Positions 5,535 to 43,063 of a DNA stretch of 64,000 bases are shown here, one piece after another (position 1 is the stretch's first letter; each line of letters begins with the position of its first letter). Made by a program: the position numbers and the translations under genes. The stretch covers positions 124,001 to 188,000 of the forward strand of contig SCRN01000033.1 in the NCBI GenBank assembly GCA_004322045.1, read 5' to 3'. The stretch is from Paraburkholderia sp. (GTDB taxonomy: Bacteria; Pseudomonadota; Gammaproteobacteria; Burkholderiales; Burkholderiaceae). The notes beneath the pieces are model-generated. The model was not told where the DNA came from, made no database searches, and saw only the letters and a list, made by a program, of their open reading frames with translations.

Positions 5535-6458
5535 TCACGCCCAATCGCGCGGCGTCAGAAAATCGCTGTAAAGCCGCGCCTCGGGCGTACCCGGTTCCGG
5601 GCGCCAGTCATAGCGCCAATTCACGACGGGCGGCATCGACAGCAAGATCGATTCGGCACGGCCGCCGCTTTGCAGCCCGAACAAGGTGCCCCGGTCGTAG
5701 ACCAGATTGAATTCGACATAGCGGCCGCGACGATAGCATTGGAATGCGCGCTCGCGCTCGCCGTAAGGGGTGGCGCGCCGTTTTTCGAGGAGGGGCAGAT
5801 AGGCGTCGACGAATGCGTCGCCGACGCTTCTGACCATGGCGAACGAGCGCTCGAAGCCGAGCTCGTCGAAGTCGTCGAAAAAGATGCCGCCCACGCCGCG
5901 CGCCTCGTTACGGTGCTTCAGAAAGAAGTAATCGTCGCACCAGCGCTTGAAGCGCGGATAGAGATCCGCGCCGAACGGCGCAAGCGCATCGCGGCAAACG
6001 CGATGGAAATGCGCGGCGTCTTCCTCGAAGCCATAGTAGGGCGTCAAATCCATGCCGCCGCCGAACCAGAAGACCGGCGCTTCGCCTTCTTTGGTCGCCG
6101 CCAGCATGCGCACGTTCATGTGGGCGGTAGGGCAATACGGGTTACGCGGATGGATGACGAGCGACACGCCCATCGCTTCGAACCCGCGCCCGGCCAGGTG
6201 CGGTCGCAGCGCGCTGGCCGAGGGCGGCAACTTCTCGCCCGCGACATCGGAGAAGCCGACGCCGCCCCGCTCGATCAGTTCGCCTTCTTCCAAAATGCGC
6301 GTGAGCCCGCCGCCTCGTAGTTTCTCACCCGGCGGGCGCGTCCAAGCATCGGAGCCGAACGGCTTGCCGTCGAGCGCGCCAAGCGCATCGACGATGCGCG
6401 TTTGCAGCCCTTGCAAATAGCTGCGCACGGAAGAGACGTCGTGGGTCGTATCGGACAT
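5535..6458 (-). CDS. hemF: Oxygen-dependent coproporphyrinogen III oxidase
   Basis: HemF performs the oxygen-dependent double oxidative decarboxylation of coproporphyrinogen III to protoporphyrinogen IX in haem synthesis. The 307-residue length is typical. Conserved blocks are seen in order: [72 protein letters not shown] and a C-terminal [20 protein letters not shown]. The gene sits between purD and nadD, the usual order in Burkholderia. The gap to purD (6459-6563) holds a GC-rich inverted repeat (6505-6524) without a T-run. Confidence 0.98.
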
Positions 6459-31938: not shown

Positions 31939-32826
31939 ATGGCCGCTTTCAAACCGCGTCGCCCGCGCACCGGCACCACGCCGATGCCGCGTCCGTTCCG
32001 GCGCAATCCGTTTCGCCGCAACAAGACGCTCGGCGCCGATTCGGCGCCGGCCGAGAGCCGGCGCGCCGCGCGCCAGCAGTTCTTGCGCACGCGGGGCATC
32101 TATCTGCTGCCGAATGCATTCACCACGGCTGCGCTCTTTTGTGGGTTTTTCGCGGTCGTGCAAGCGATGAACGTGCGCTTCGAGATCGCCGCCATTGCGA
32201 TTTTCGTGGCAATGGTGCTCGACGGCATGGATGGGCGCGTCGCGCGCATGACGCATACGCAAAGCGCGTTCGGGGAGCAGTTCGACTCTCTGTCCGATAT
32301 GGTGTCGTTCGGTGTCGCGCCGGCGCTCGTGATGTACGAATGGGTGCTCAAAGACCTTGGGCGGTGGGGCTGGCTCGCCGCCTTCGTCTACTGTTCGGGG
32401 GCCGCGCTGCGGCTTGCGCGCTTCAATACGAATATTGGCGTGGTCGACAAGCGCTTCTTCCAGGGCCTGCCGAGCCCGGCCGCCGCCGCGCTGATTGCGG
32501 GCTTCGTTTGGCTCGCCACCGACAATCGCGTGCCGCTCAAGCTCGTTTGGCTGCCCTGGGTTGCGTTTGCACTGACGGTCTATGCGGGCGTGACGATGGT
32601 TTCGAATGCACCGTTTTACAGCGGCAAGGCGCTGGACGTGCGGCATCGCGTGCCGTTTGCGGCAATTCTGCTCGTCGTCGTCGCGTTCGTGCTGGTTTCG
32701 TCCGATCCGCCGTTGATGCTGTTCGGGCTGTTCGTGCTCTATGGGCTTTCGGGCTACGCGTTCTGGGGCTACATGGCGGTGCGCGGGCGCGACAATCCGG
32801 CCCGTTCGGCGCCCCACGAACACTGA
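31939..32826 (+). CDS. pssA: CDP-diacylglycerol-serine O-phosphatidyltransferase
   Basis: PssA makes phosphatidylserine from CDP-diacylglycerol and serine. The 295-residue integral membrane protein has the CDP-alcohol phosphotransferase motif D-G-x2-D-G-R-V-A-R... ending F-G-E-Q-F-D-S-L-S-D near residues 95-118, and about seven membrane helices. The first 50 residues are basic and Arg/Pro-rich. It forms one unit with psd, so phosphatidylethanolamine synthesis is encoded together. leuA lies downstream after its own promoter and leader. Confidence 0.97.
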   Translation: MAAFKPRRPRTGTTPMPRPFRRNPFRRNKTLGADSAPAESRRAARQQFLRTRGIYLLPNAFTTAALFCGFFAVVQAMNVRFEIAAIAIFVAMVLDGMDGRVARMTHTQSAFGEQFDSLSDMVSFGVAPALVMYEWVLKDLGRWGWLAAFVYCSGAALRLARFNTNIGVVDKRFFQGLPSPAAAALIAGFVWLATDNRVPLKLVWLPWVAFALTVYAGVTMVSNAPFYSGKALDVRHRVPFAAILLVVVAFVLVSSDPPLMLFGLFVLYGLSGYAFWGYMAVRGRDNPARSAPHEH

Positions 32827-32905
32827 AAAAGGGCCATGACGCGCATGCGGCCGCACCGGGGGAGCGCGTGGCGCTCGCCGGGCGCGTGCGCGTGTCCTGT
32901 GCCGA

Positions 32906-32934
32906 TTGCGCGAACCGGCGAATGCCGCTATAGT
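32906..32934 (+). promoter_or_regulatory. Promoter for the leuA leader
   Basis: TTGCGC (32906-32911), 17-bp spacer, TATAGT (32929-32934; 5 of 6 consensus). Transcription would start near 32941, directly at the leader-peptide ATG (32942), which has no ribosome binding site, so the leader may be translated as a leaderless mRNA. Confidence 0.6.
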
Positions 32935-32941
32935 CGGCGAC

Positions 32942-33025
32942 ATGTCGATTTTGACCTTCCCCCGCCTATCCCTCCTAGCCAGTGCGCCTCTATGCGCGCT
33001 AGCGCTAGCGCGCCTACCGCGCTAA
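32942..33025 (+). CDS. leuA leader peptide (putative attenuator peptide)
   Basis: This 27-codon frame begins MSILTFPRLSLLASAP and ends ALARLPR. Eight residues are leucine, and six of these use CTA, the rarest leucine codon in this high-GC genome (codons 9, 12, 17, 20, 22, 25). Clusters of CTA leucine codons upstream of a leu gene are the hallmark of leu-operon attenuation (as in enterobacterial leuL). It sits just after a good promoter and 123 bases before leuA, and its end overlaps alternative RNA hairpins. It is too short for ordinary gene finders. Function is inferred from codon content and position. Confidence 0.72.
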   Translation: MSILTFPRLSLLASAPLCALALARLPR

Positions 33026-33099
33026 TCGTTTTCGCCCCCGTCTGCCTCGTTCGTTATTCGGCGTCGCCAGCGGTGGCGGCAACGCCCGAATTCCGTTTT
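32994..33099 (+). terminator. Alternative hairpins of the leuA attenuator region
   Basis: Three structures can form. A 20-bp perfect palindrome, GCGCGCTAGCGCTAGCGCGC, lies at 32994-33013. A 7-bp stem TAGCGCG/CGCGCTA (33006-33024), followed shortly by TTTT (33029-33032), overlaps and excludes the first. A long stem of about 14 bp with two bulges (33056-33091) is followed at 33096 by TTTT and is the best terminator candidate. Which ones act is not known. Confidence 0.45.
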
Positions 33100-33148
33100 C
33101 GCATTGCATTGCACATCCCGAAAGCAAACGTCCCCCTGGAGACATGAC

Positions 33149-34693
33149 ATGGCAGACAAGCTGATTATTTTCGACACGACGTTGCGCGATGGCGAACAGT
33201 CGCCCGGCGCGTCGATGACGAAAGAAGAAAAGATCCGCATCGCAAAGCAGCTCGAGCGCATGAAGGTCGACGTGATCGAGGCCGGTTTCGCGGCAAGCTC
33301 GAACGGCGATTTCGATGCAATCAACACGATTGCCTCGCTGATCAAGGACAGCACCGTCTGCTCGCTGGCGCGCGCTAACGACAAGGACATCCAGCGGGCC
33401 GCCGATGCCCTCGCGCCGGCCGAGCACTTTCGTATCCATACGTTCATCGCCACTTCCCCGCTGCACATGGAGAAGAAGCTGCGCATGACGCCGGAGCAGG
33501 TGTACGAGCAGGCGCGCCTGGCCGTGCGCTTTGCTCGCAAATTCACGAACGATGTCGAGTTCTCGCCCGAGGACGGCAGCCGCTCGGATATGGATTTTCT
33601 GTGCCGTGTGCTCGAAGCCGTGATCGACGAAGGCGCGACGACGATCAATATCGCCGACACGGTCGGCTACGGCGTGCCCGAGCTTTACGGCAATCTCGTG
33701 AAGACGCTGCGCGAGCGCATCCCGAACTCGGACAAGGCCATTTTCTCCGTGCATTGCCACAACGATTTGGGCATGGCGGTGGCGAATTCGCTGGCCGGCG
33801 TGAAGATCGGCGGCGCGCGGCAAGTGGAATGCACGATCAACGGTTTGGGCGAGCGCGCGGGCAATACGGCGCTCGAAGAAATCGTCATGGCGGTGCGCAC
33901 GCGCAAAGACTATTACGGCTTGGAGGTGGGCATCGACGCGACGCAGATCGTGCCCGCGTCGAAGCTCGTGTCGCAAACGACCGGTTTCGTGGTGCAGCCG
34001 AACAAGGCGGTGGTTGGCGCCAATGCATTCGCGCATGCGTCGGGCATTCACCAGGATGGCGTGCTCAAGGCGCGCGACACCTACGAGATCATGCGTGCGG
34101 AAGACGTGGGCTGGAGCGCCAACAAGATCGTGCTCGGCAAGCTCTCGGGCCGCAACGCATTCAAGCAGCGCCTGCAGGAGCTCGGCATTGCGCTCGAGAG
34201 CGAAGCGGATTTGAATCAGGCGTTCGTGCGCTTCAAGGAGCTCGCCGATCGCAAGGCCGAGATCTTCGACGAGGACATCATCGCCATCGTGACCGAAGAA
34301 TCGGCTGCGGCGCAGGAGCGCGAGCATTACAAGTTCGTCTCGCTGGCCCAGCATTCGGAGACGGGCGAGCGCCCGCATGCGCGCGTGGTGTTCTCGGTGG
34401 ACGGCAAGGAAACCGTCGGCGAGGCGCGCGGCAACGGGCCGGTGGACGCGACGCTCAATGCGATCGAAGGCGAGGTGGGCAGCGGCTCGGAGTTGCTGCT
34501 TTACTCGGTCAATGCGATTACGACGGGCACGCAGGCGCAGGGCGAAGTGACGGTGCGGCTGTCCAAGAGCGGGCGCATCGTGAACGGCGTCGGCACCGAT
34601 CCCGATATCGTCGCGGCTTCGGCGAAGGCGTATATTTCCGCGCTCAACAAGCTCTATGGGAACGTCGAGAAGTTGAACCCGCAAGGCGTTTGA
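33149..34693 (+). CDS. leuA: 2-isopropylmalate synthase
   Basis: LeuA condenses acetyl-CoA and 2-ketoisovalerate, the committed step to leucine. I start it at [20 protein letters not shown] (ATG 33149, GGAG 8 bases upstream), giving 514 residues. The HMGL-like TIM barrel has [15 protein letters not shown] at 8-22, [15 protein letters not shown] with the metal-binding His pair, and [14 protein letters not shown]. The C-terminal third (about 385-510) is the leucine-binding regulatory domain, [18 protein letters not shown]. It is convergent with the lipoprotein gene at 34713. Confidence 0.97.
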
Positions 34694-34712: not shown

Positions 34713-35219
34713 TTAGAATCCGAATCGATTTCGATCCGGCTCGTGCAGCGGGTCCGGCGTCTTTTGCGTGAGCCGCAAGATGCCCTGCGGATCGAAATAG
34801 AAGTGATAAAGCTGGTACCACACGTTGTCTTCGAGATAGCGGTAGGTCCAGACTTCACGCTTCATCAACGGAAAGTACGCCGTCTCGACCGGCCGGCCGA
34901 AGTTCACGAGCACGTCTTGTTTCGTCCACGTGCCGATCTGCGCCTTATAGAACTCGCTCGGCTGCAGCACTTGCCGCACCGTGACGATCTTTCCTGCCGA
35001 ATCGACGTCGGCGGCCGTCGTCTCCTCGCCCATCGGTTGCGTAGGCCACATGAGCCGCTTGCCGCCGTCGGGCAGATCGTAGATTTCGCGCGGCGGCCCG
35101 AGGCGCGCGACGAGCGCGGATTGATCCTGGCCGCGCGTGAAGCCTTGCCACGGCTGCGCGCAGCCCGAGAGCGCAAAAGCTGCGGCGCAAACAAGCGCGA
35201 CCGATAGACGCTTGGACAT
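34713..35219 (-). CDS. Outer-membrane lipoprotein with BamE/SmpA-like repeats
   Basis: This 168-residue protein has a lipoprotein signal MSKRLSVALVCAAAFALSGC, with the lipobox cysteine at residue 20. The mature part seems to hold two BamE-like units: about 30-65 (DQSALVARLGPPREIYDLPD) and about 98-155 (WTKQDVLVNFGRPVETAYFP, then WTYRYLEDNVWYQLYHFYF). It was not recognised as a named protein. The BamE/OmlA relation is a pattern judgement; it is not bamE itself by context. Confidence 0.8.
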   Translation of the reverse strand: MSKRLSVALVCAAAFALSGCAQPWQGFTRGQDQSALVARLGPPREIYDLPDGGKRLMWPTQPMGEETTAADVDSAGKIVTVRQVLQPSEFYKAQIGTWTKQDVLVNFGRPVETAYFPLMKREVWTYRYLEDNVWYQLYHFYFDPQGILRLTQKTPDPLHEPDRNRFGF

Positions 35220-42978: not shown

Positions 42979-43063
42979 GCCGACGTGGTGAAATTGGTAG
43001 ACACGCTATCTTGAGGGGGTAGTGGCGAAAGCTGTGCGAGTTCGAGTCTCGCCGTCGGCACCA
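42979..43063 (+). tRNA. tRNA-Leu (anticodon GAG)
   Basis: The 85-nt gene has a complete cloverleaf: acceptor stem GCCGACG/CGTCGGC, D-arm with GGTGAAATTGGTAGAC, anticodon stem CTATC/GGTAG with loop TTGAGGG giving anticodon GAG (reads CUC/CUU), a long class II variable arm, T-arm GCGAG-TTCGAGT-CTCGC and an encoded CCA. It lies between secG and nuoA. Confidence 0.97.

Follow-up and report, generated by a model that had tools for sequence, protein, structure and literature searches.

A leucine-rich, putatively leaderless leader frame before leuA in betaproteobacteria as a probable ribosome-mediated attenuator

Is the short leucine-rich frame directly upstream of leuA in this betaproteobacterial DNA a regulator of the gene, and by what means would it act? 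The window, by which we mean the whole stretch of 64,000 nucleotides that was analysed (G000:C10:124001-188000), belongs to a genome of 6.0 Mb and carries leuA on the + strand at 33149-34693, encoding a 2-isopropylmalate synthase of 514 aa (NCBIfam NF002087, 910.2 bits against a cut-off of 729) and preceded by the Shine-Dalgarno sequence GGAG at 33138-33141 (+). Behind the leader frame leuA stands alone, as a single gene; its 5' neighbour is a frame of 295 aa that ends at 32826, and its 3' neighbour one of 168 aa on the opposite strand (34713-35219). The 450 bases upstream of ilvI and of both leuC genes in the same genome were searched for frames of 8-60 codons in which Ile, Leu and Val exceed 35%, and no similar leader was found. 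A tRNA-Leu (GAG) gene, probably a coincidence, lies at 42979-43063 (+), some 8 kb downstream from leuA, and one genome of the window's genus has a second LeuA-like stretch (G005:C45:161252-162403) with an internal TAG and 79% identity over residues 1-384.

An earlier note on this DNA had proposed a transcription attenuator ahead of leuA. The frame, its CTA codons, the absence of a Shine-Dalgarno sequence and the single-gene leuA setting stood, in relatives as well; a role of its two stem-plus-TTTT elements as conserved intrinsic terminators was not supported. Many betaproteobacterial relatives retain the leader frame, and therefore it is probably a switch that turns leuA on at leucine shortage. 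The reading that we favour, with a probability of about 0.8, is a leucine-responsive, ribosome-mediated attenuator of leuA transcription, the sensor frame of which would be translated from a leaderless mRNA.

Leader frame, promoter and leucine codons

The leuL-like leader frame, recognised from the sequence and from relatives, spans 32942-33025 (+) and has 27 codons (MSILTFPRLSLLASAPLCALALARLPR, followed by a stop) and no Shine-Dalgarno sequence. As had been claimed for it, eight of these codons are for leucine, comprising six CTA, one CTC and one TTG. The promoter described in the earlier note is also present, at 32906-32934 (+), with TTGCGC as -35 (32906-32911), a spacer of 17 nt and TATAGT as -10 (32929-32934), seven bases before the leader ATG; a simple promoter scan, which needs 9 of 12 matches, did not list it. 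Across relatives, TTG..TANNNT occupies a fixed place in 143 of 187 leaders and the distance from -10 to ATG is 4-10 nt, most commonly 7, a spacing that is not independent evidence because a -10-like hexamer close to the ATG was required when these leaders were selected. Unlike the spacing, the missing Shine-Dalgarno sequence is independent evidence for a putatively leaderless frame: of 187 leaders, one has an SD-like 4-mer ahead of its own ATG, whereas 178 are followed by a leuA ATG with such a 4-mer, and the suggested absence of a ribosome binding site at the leader thus holds in relatives. From the promoter spacing together with the missing Shine-Dalgarno sequence, we infer a transcription start on the leader ATG or only a few bases away. 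Excerpts of PMC4603805 and PMC7563307 report leaderless mRNAs for Burkholderia cenocepacia and describe them as numerous in Cupriavidus metallidurans, and translation of the leader frame is therefore plausible.

CTA had been called the rarest leucine codon. Of the 1731 Leu codons in 51 genes inferred for the window, 38 are CTA (2.2%), which makes it rare, but TTA is rarer still (10, or 0.6%). With window-gene usage, the binomial probability of at least six CTA among eight Leu codons is 3e-9 (uncorrected). Among the 780 short frames of the window (15-60 codons), at least four CTA occur in two, and six only in the frame at 32942-33025. The other one, with 43 codons on the minus strand at 5608-5739 and four CTA among seven Leu, looks like a chance frame.

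Distribution of the leader and choice of the control codon

We compared the leuA upstream regions of 80 named loci (78 usable) and 11 members of the window's genus, of 92 further places in the family (20 loci and 72 stretches) and, order-wide, of 80 out of 100 places from a sample of 115 genomes, 79 of them usable under a strict rule and 64 under a loose one. The loose rule accepted an ATG or GTG behind a -10-like hexamer, with either at least four Leu in eight codons or at least two CTA; the strict rule took an ATG with both -35 and -10. From likeness to named loci, we take g12 to be Burkholderia-like, g10 Caballeronia-like, g21 Paraburkholderia-like, g3 Cupriavidus-like, g25 Ralstonia-like and g11 Pandoraea-like. 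Under the loose rule the leader was found in all 11 genomes of the window's genus (g1, the source included), in 17/17 of g12, 3/3 of g14, 18/20 of g10, 12/20 of g21, 10/10 of g3 and 3/3 of g25, and more sparsely in g11 (5/12), g8 (1/4), g17 (0/2) and g18 (0/1). The sequence before leuA in L172 of g17 is the same as at the named Pararobbsia locus L005. Among named loci the loose rule gave 48 of 78 (absent in 30) and over the order 36 of 64, with 63 of 1280 in shuffles, some of the named and order matches being ends of the upstream gene; under the strict rule, 42 of the 79 regions sampled over the order have a leader vs 14 of 2370 shuffles.

The frame has also been lost. Eight of the 20 Paraburkholderia-like genomes are without it, and a frame of the window's type is missing or broken in ten Paraburkholderia-like regions (L001, L002, L116, L117, L119, L122-L125 and L129). 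Most of these ten retain the TATA box, and L001, L002 and L124, among others, retain the downstream CGTCGCC..GGTGGCG element. Either control was lost in these regions or the RNA has a second role.

The earlier note had made its reading depend on the conservation of the frame and of its CTA codons. Both are kept in relatives, where some CTA columns are fixed: codons 11, 16 and 19 in all 17 leaders of g12, codons 17 and 20 in all 17 of g10, codons 17, 20 and 22 in all eight 27-codon leaders of g1, and codons 13, 16 and 17 in all ten of g3. CTA accounts for 398 of 746 Leu codons in the leaders vs 23 of 4071 in the leuA coding sequence of the same loci, where short stretches gave only the first leuA codons; the leader share is inflated because, g11 excepted, at least one CTA was required for selection. 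Over the order, 29 of 42 strict-rule leaders have no CTA, and therefore the codon looks like a lineage-specific choice and no general rule of the element. Many order-wide leaders end in CTG CTG CTG CGC CYC GCG CGC and a stop (LLLR[PL]AR). By way of observation, many leaders of other betaproteobacterial families (L213-L292) end in CTGCTGCTGCGCCYCGCGCGC before the stop, followed by a short C-rich stretch, several of them having, by eye, a hairpin without U-tract 30-65 nt behind the stop; and L073, from a Bordetella parapertussis MAG, has the leader MFSAYNSLISPNSSRLGDTLSALLLRPART before leuA, of the LLLRPAR type and without CTA.

The pN/pS of the leader in its true frame is 0.57 in g1, 0.35 in g12, 0.71 in g10, 0.76 in g21, 1.05 in g3 and 0.86 in the Comamonadaceae-like group, and is below that of both other frames in five of six sets. 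With values from 0.35 to 1.05, selection at the level of the peptide is weak; the codons, and not the peptide, seem to be what matters. Excerpts of PMC1183508 name CUA as the leu control codon that theory finds most suitable in E. coli, and relate that replacing CUA by CUG lowered the sensitivity of leu attenuation in Salmonella.

Terminators of three relative groups and RNA structures of the window's clade

Three groups of relatives have terminators of -12 kcal/mol or below after the leader, in all leaders examined: 30/30 Comamonadaceae-like, 14/14 Cupriavidus/Ralstonia-like and 4/4 Polynucleobacter. In the Cupriavidus/Ralstonia-like group the terminator is GCCCCGGCCTGCA-loop-TGCACGCCGGGGC followed by TTTT, and the Q-V-G codons at the frame end (CAGGTCGGG) pair with CCCGGCCTG of its 5' arm over nine positions in 99% of cells. 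The Comamonadaceae-like terminator reads GCCCGT..ACGGGC or GCCCGC..GCGGGC with TTT, and in most of these leaders the ACGGGC within the HGR or NGR codons pairs with GCCCGT; where the arm deviates (e.g. L018, L034, L043 and L050) so does the frame end, and pairing is preserved. In Polynucleobacter, GCTTGGGGC pairs with GCCCCAGC. Terminator and frame-end complementarity together make up, at the level of sequence, a complete attenuator anatomy in the three groups.

The fit between arm and frame end is specific to differing degrees. The mean duplex energy of the Cupriavidus/Ralstonia-like arm is -21.5 with its own frame end vs -13.5, -14.9 and -18.0 with foreign ones, and in Polynucleobacter it is -18.6 vs -7.0, -11.7 and -7.9; the Comamonadaceae-like value (-12.6) is hardly better than the foreign ones (-11.1, -12.0 and -10.6). 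Mean z values against shuffled tails are weak, namely -1.64 for Cupriavidus/Ralstonia-like, -1.01 for Comamonadaceae-like and -3.44 for Polynucleobacter leaders, and -0.67 for the window's clade. We also folded truncated transcripts, with the RNA cut at the terminator loop and the ribosome at the best Leu codon. In this model the probability of pairing between the 5' arm and the frame is 0.81 in Cupriavidus/Ralstonia-like, 0.60 in Comamonadaceae-like and 0.81 in Polynucleobacter leaders vs 0.62, 0.46 and 0.60 in the respective shuffled-tail controls, each leader being higher than its own control in 14/14, 26/30 and 4/4 cases. This pairing is 0 in all three groups once the ribosome sits at the stop, because the tail is masked. 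In equilibrium folding of whole leaders, the probability of the Polynucleobacter terminator falls from 0.63 in ribosome-free RNA to 0.24 with a ribosome at the worst Leu stall, and is 0.81 when the ribosome is at the stop. There is hardly any switch at equilibrium in the Cupriavidus/Ralstonia-like group (terminator 0.97 both without ribosome and at the worst stall) or the Comamonadaceae-like group (0.93 and 0.89), and with no equilibrium switch in two of the three groups the model must therefore be kinetic.

In the window, a palindrome of 20 nt (GCGCGCTAGCGCTAGCGCGC) lies within the frame at 32994-33013 (+) and shares its 3' part with the next stem. The earlier note had given it as 20 bp; its presence and the overlap are confirmed, and its size is corrected to 20 nt. 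Within it, GCGCGCTA and TAGCGCGC are paired in 91% of cells over 62 clade sequences. The next stem-loop, TAGCGCG-CCTAC-CGCGCTA at 33006-33024 (+), known from the sequence and from relatives, covers the frame end, is followed by ATCGTTTTCG and is paired in 99% of cells over the same 62 sequences. We rejected it, with its TTTT, as the main terminator because the stop codon enters the 3' arm, which a finishing ribosome would cover; it is probably a pause or spacer hairpin. A second reason is its TTTT, which 19 of 60 clade sequences have right behind the stop (0/17 in g10, 5/17 in g12).

Directly after the stop, at 33026-33055 (+), follows a C/U-rich tract of 12 C, 12 T, 6 G and no A, a candidate for the 5' arm of an antiterminator and also for a Rho loading site. 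Folding gives two alternative structures here. One is a candidate antiterminator at 33027-33084 (+), a long hairpin of conserved sequence in which the tract pairs with 33059-33084; in the clade, the tract after the stop pairs likewise with the CGTCGCCAGCGGTGGCG region. The other is a candidate terminator hairpin at 33052-33095 (+) with TTTT at 33096-33099, which is the stem with a later TTTT that had been described before leuA. The TTTT behind this downstream hairpin is kept in 28 of 60 clade sequences (0/17 in g12, 12/17 in g10), so that neither of the two stem-plus-TTTT elements can be upheld as a conserved intrinsic terminator. Of 64 clade leaders, 5 have a U-tract hairpin of -12 kcal/mol or below, or 14 if the rule for the U-tract is relaxed.

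With a Leu stall in mid-leader, the probability of the long hairpin is 0.61 vs 0.22 when the tract is shuffled, and 49 of 60 leaders exceed the control made from their own sequence; a ribosome at the stop brings the long hairpin down to 0.04 and raises the alternative hairpin from 0.49 to 0.90. In the model, this ribosome-dependent exchange of the two hairpins is the right logic for attenuation, and termination in the window's clade is most likely weakly intrinsic or Rho-dependent. Pairing of the frame end with the 5' arm of the downstream hairpin, as seen in the relatives, was rejected for the window's clade, where it exceeds control in only 14 of 58 leaders and averages 0.68, below the control value of 0.75 (L144 and L145, without the motif, were left out). 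The leader RNA folds modestly better than shuffles (z -1.88; 7 of 200 shuffles fold as well). The earlier note had suggested looking for covarying stems upstream of leuA; in the window's clade none goes beyond shuffles, the long and the alternative hairpin having two pairs each with changes on both sides, fewer than in shuffles. The missing covariation counts against both structures; the conservation of sequence in the hairpin region speaks neither for nor against them.

Proposed mechanism, alternatives and meaning

In the mechanism that we propose, transcription would begin at or within a few bases of the leader ATG. When leucine is plentiful, the ribosome would reach the stop and cover the RNA just beyond it, the downstream terminating structure would act and leuA would be off. 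When leucine is short, the ribosome would halt at the Leu (CTA) codons, RNA at or just behind the frame end would pair with the 5' part of the terminating structure and leuA would be on. In Comamonadaceae-like, Cupriavidus-like and Polynucleobacter leaders the terminator would be the intrinsic hairpin with its U-tract and the antiterminator strand the frame end. In the window's clade, the pairing of 33026-33055 with 33059-33084 and the opposing hairpin 33052-33095 most likely fill these roles; we infer the start site, translation and the response to leucine for all of these leaders, and for this clade every termination step as well.

How transcription ends is where the favoured reading faces its most serious competitor. 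In Rho-dependent leader-peptide attenuators of tnaC-like topology, the Rho loading site lies directly behind the leader stop. The window's leader has a C-rich tract at this very place, and Rho might load on such a tract once the ribosome has left the stop, not only in the window's clade but in most betaproteobacteria besides; a stall at the Leu codons would keep the tract sequestered in the long hairpin, and some lineages would later have acquired intrinsic terminators in place of Rho. This would be the same switch, only with a different terminator. An intrinsic terminator at -12 or below is missing from 46 of 47 leaders of other families and from 59 of the 64 leaders in the window's clade, and in the scan output 37 of 42 order-wide leaders lack one, the five exceptions being two Polynucleobacter leaders (-15.7), L248 (-12.0), L246 (-8.7) and L288 (-8.6). 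The 40 nt after the stop hold 10.8 YC dimers in leaders without terminator (n=118) vs 6.5 in those with one (n=36), and 26 of 65 clade leaders contain a 78-nt window with spaced C and a C/G of at least 1.5, vs 4% of control windows. The composition of the tract after the stop therefore suggests Rho, but the tests are mixed and their related sequences are not independent: C minus G is the same (0.17) in ten terminator-bearing Comamonadaceae-like leaders and in terminator-less ones, a C/G of 1.5 is reached in only 19 of 58 other betaproteobacterial leaders (control 13%), and such windows are found in 4 of 14 Cupriavidus/Ralstonia-like leaders despite their terminators (control 6%). Moreover, a ribosome stalled upstream would not itself shield the tract. 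We regard Rho-dependent attenuation as a possibility to be taken seriously, though we would not put it at even odds.

Control might also act on translation, with the ribosome shaping the leader RNA so that the leuA Shine-Dalgarno sequence is hidden or freed, similar to what excerpts of PMC1262725 propose for the actinobacterial leuA LEU element, a pseudoknot plus a stem between Leu codons and the leuA Shine-Dalgarno sequence. That element shares a leader frame with a Leu run before leuA; in our case the four-pair stem to GGAG seen in folds is a possible counterpart of its stem. The minimum-energy fold of the window's leader pairs CUCC of the Leu codons with the leuA GGAG, and the consensus folds of g1, g12 and g21 give a four-pair stem from frame to GGAG as well, but codons rich in C and U can be expected to form four pairs with a purine-rich site in any case, the g10 and g14 consensus folds do not have the stem, and three relative groups have terminators between frame and leuA instead; this reading is improbable. 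Still less credible is that there is no attenuator and that the region is simply GC-rich and promoter-proximal with chance Leu codons, or a structured 5' leader selected only as RNA. The weak pN/pS would fit it, as would the Paraburkholderia-like genomes that retain the downstream element with a broken frame, but it leaves unexplained the excess of strict-rule leaders (42/79 vs 14/2370 shuffles), the fixed CTA columns, the identity of the leader's amino acid with the product of the pathway, and the match between the terminator arm and the end of the frame among Cupriavidus/Ralstonia-like and Polynucleobacter leaders.

Tentatively, and as a scenario that we consider rather doubtful, the element may descend from an old betaproteobacterial leuA attenuator with a leaderless frame ending in Leu-Leu-Leu-Arg-Pro-Ala-Arg and a C-rich tract behind it, terminated by Rho. 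Several lineages would later have swapped in unrelated intrinsic terminators, rewriting the last codons to fit the new arm, and some would have changed the control codon from CTG to CTA.

The ribosome-mediated attenuator that we favour resembles enterobacterial leuL (RF00512, NF007397) in its short Leu-rich frame before leuA, in its CTA control codons, of which E. coli leuL has four in a row, and, in some relatives of the window's leader, in a hairpin with U-tract behind the frame. It differs in that a GGAG stands 8 nt ahead of the ATG in E. coli leuL, whereas the window's frame starts at the presumed mRNA end, and in that the window's leader precedes a single leuA gene. No Rfam family matches window positions 32880-33160 at E of 1 or below; the Leu_leader model RF00512 gives no match to L051 and L076 (E. 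coli control, 145.8 bits), and the leader peptide of the window matches 0 NCBIfam families (E. coli leader, 80.9 bits). The window's leader thus probably works like leuL, yet stands outside the leuL family models, and we judge it to be a new, putatively leaderless variant of leu attenuation. No report of a betaproteobacterial leuA leader peptide was found in the open-access literature, among the matches listed; a survey of proteobacterial attenuators from 2004 reportedly exists. A term search of the main texts of PMC4603805, PMC5688073, PMC7563307 and PMC2965389 gave no mention of leuA. Related arrangements are described in other phyla. For the Corynebacterium glutamicum ilvBNC leader, excerpts of PMC11857589 describe transcription that starts one nucleotide from the leader start codon and attenuation by three hairpins; the near-leaderless start codon and the branched-chain codons in the leader peptide are alike, whereas gene, phylum, peptide and RNA are different and the codons are for Ile, Val and Leu. 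Mycobacterial leaderless polycysteine attenuator frames (Canestrari 2020, as cited in PMC9031893 and PMC13236596) are, judging by the title, also leaderless, amino-acid-responsive short frames before operons, and differ in amino acid (cysteine) and phylum.

If the favoured reading is true, a leader that goes unrecognised by the family models and precedes leuA in about half of the regions sampled across the betaproteobacterial order would change the current picture. It would offer a naturally occurring series of leaders that combine one kind of sensor frame, on a leaderless mRNA, with different terminators, and the need for a Shine-Dalgarno sequence, the choice of CTA or CTG and a possible swap between intrinsic and Rho-dependent termination would become testable at one gene. 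Additionally, it would give hosts like Cupriavidus necator a ready leucine-responsive regulator and prompt re-annotation.
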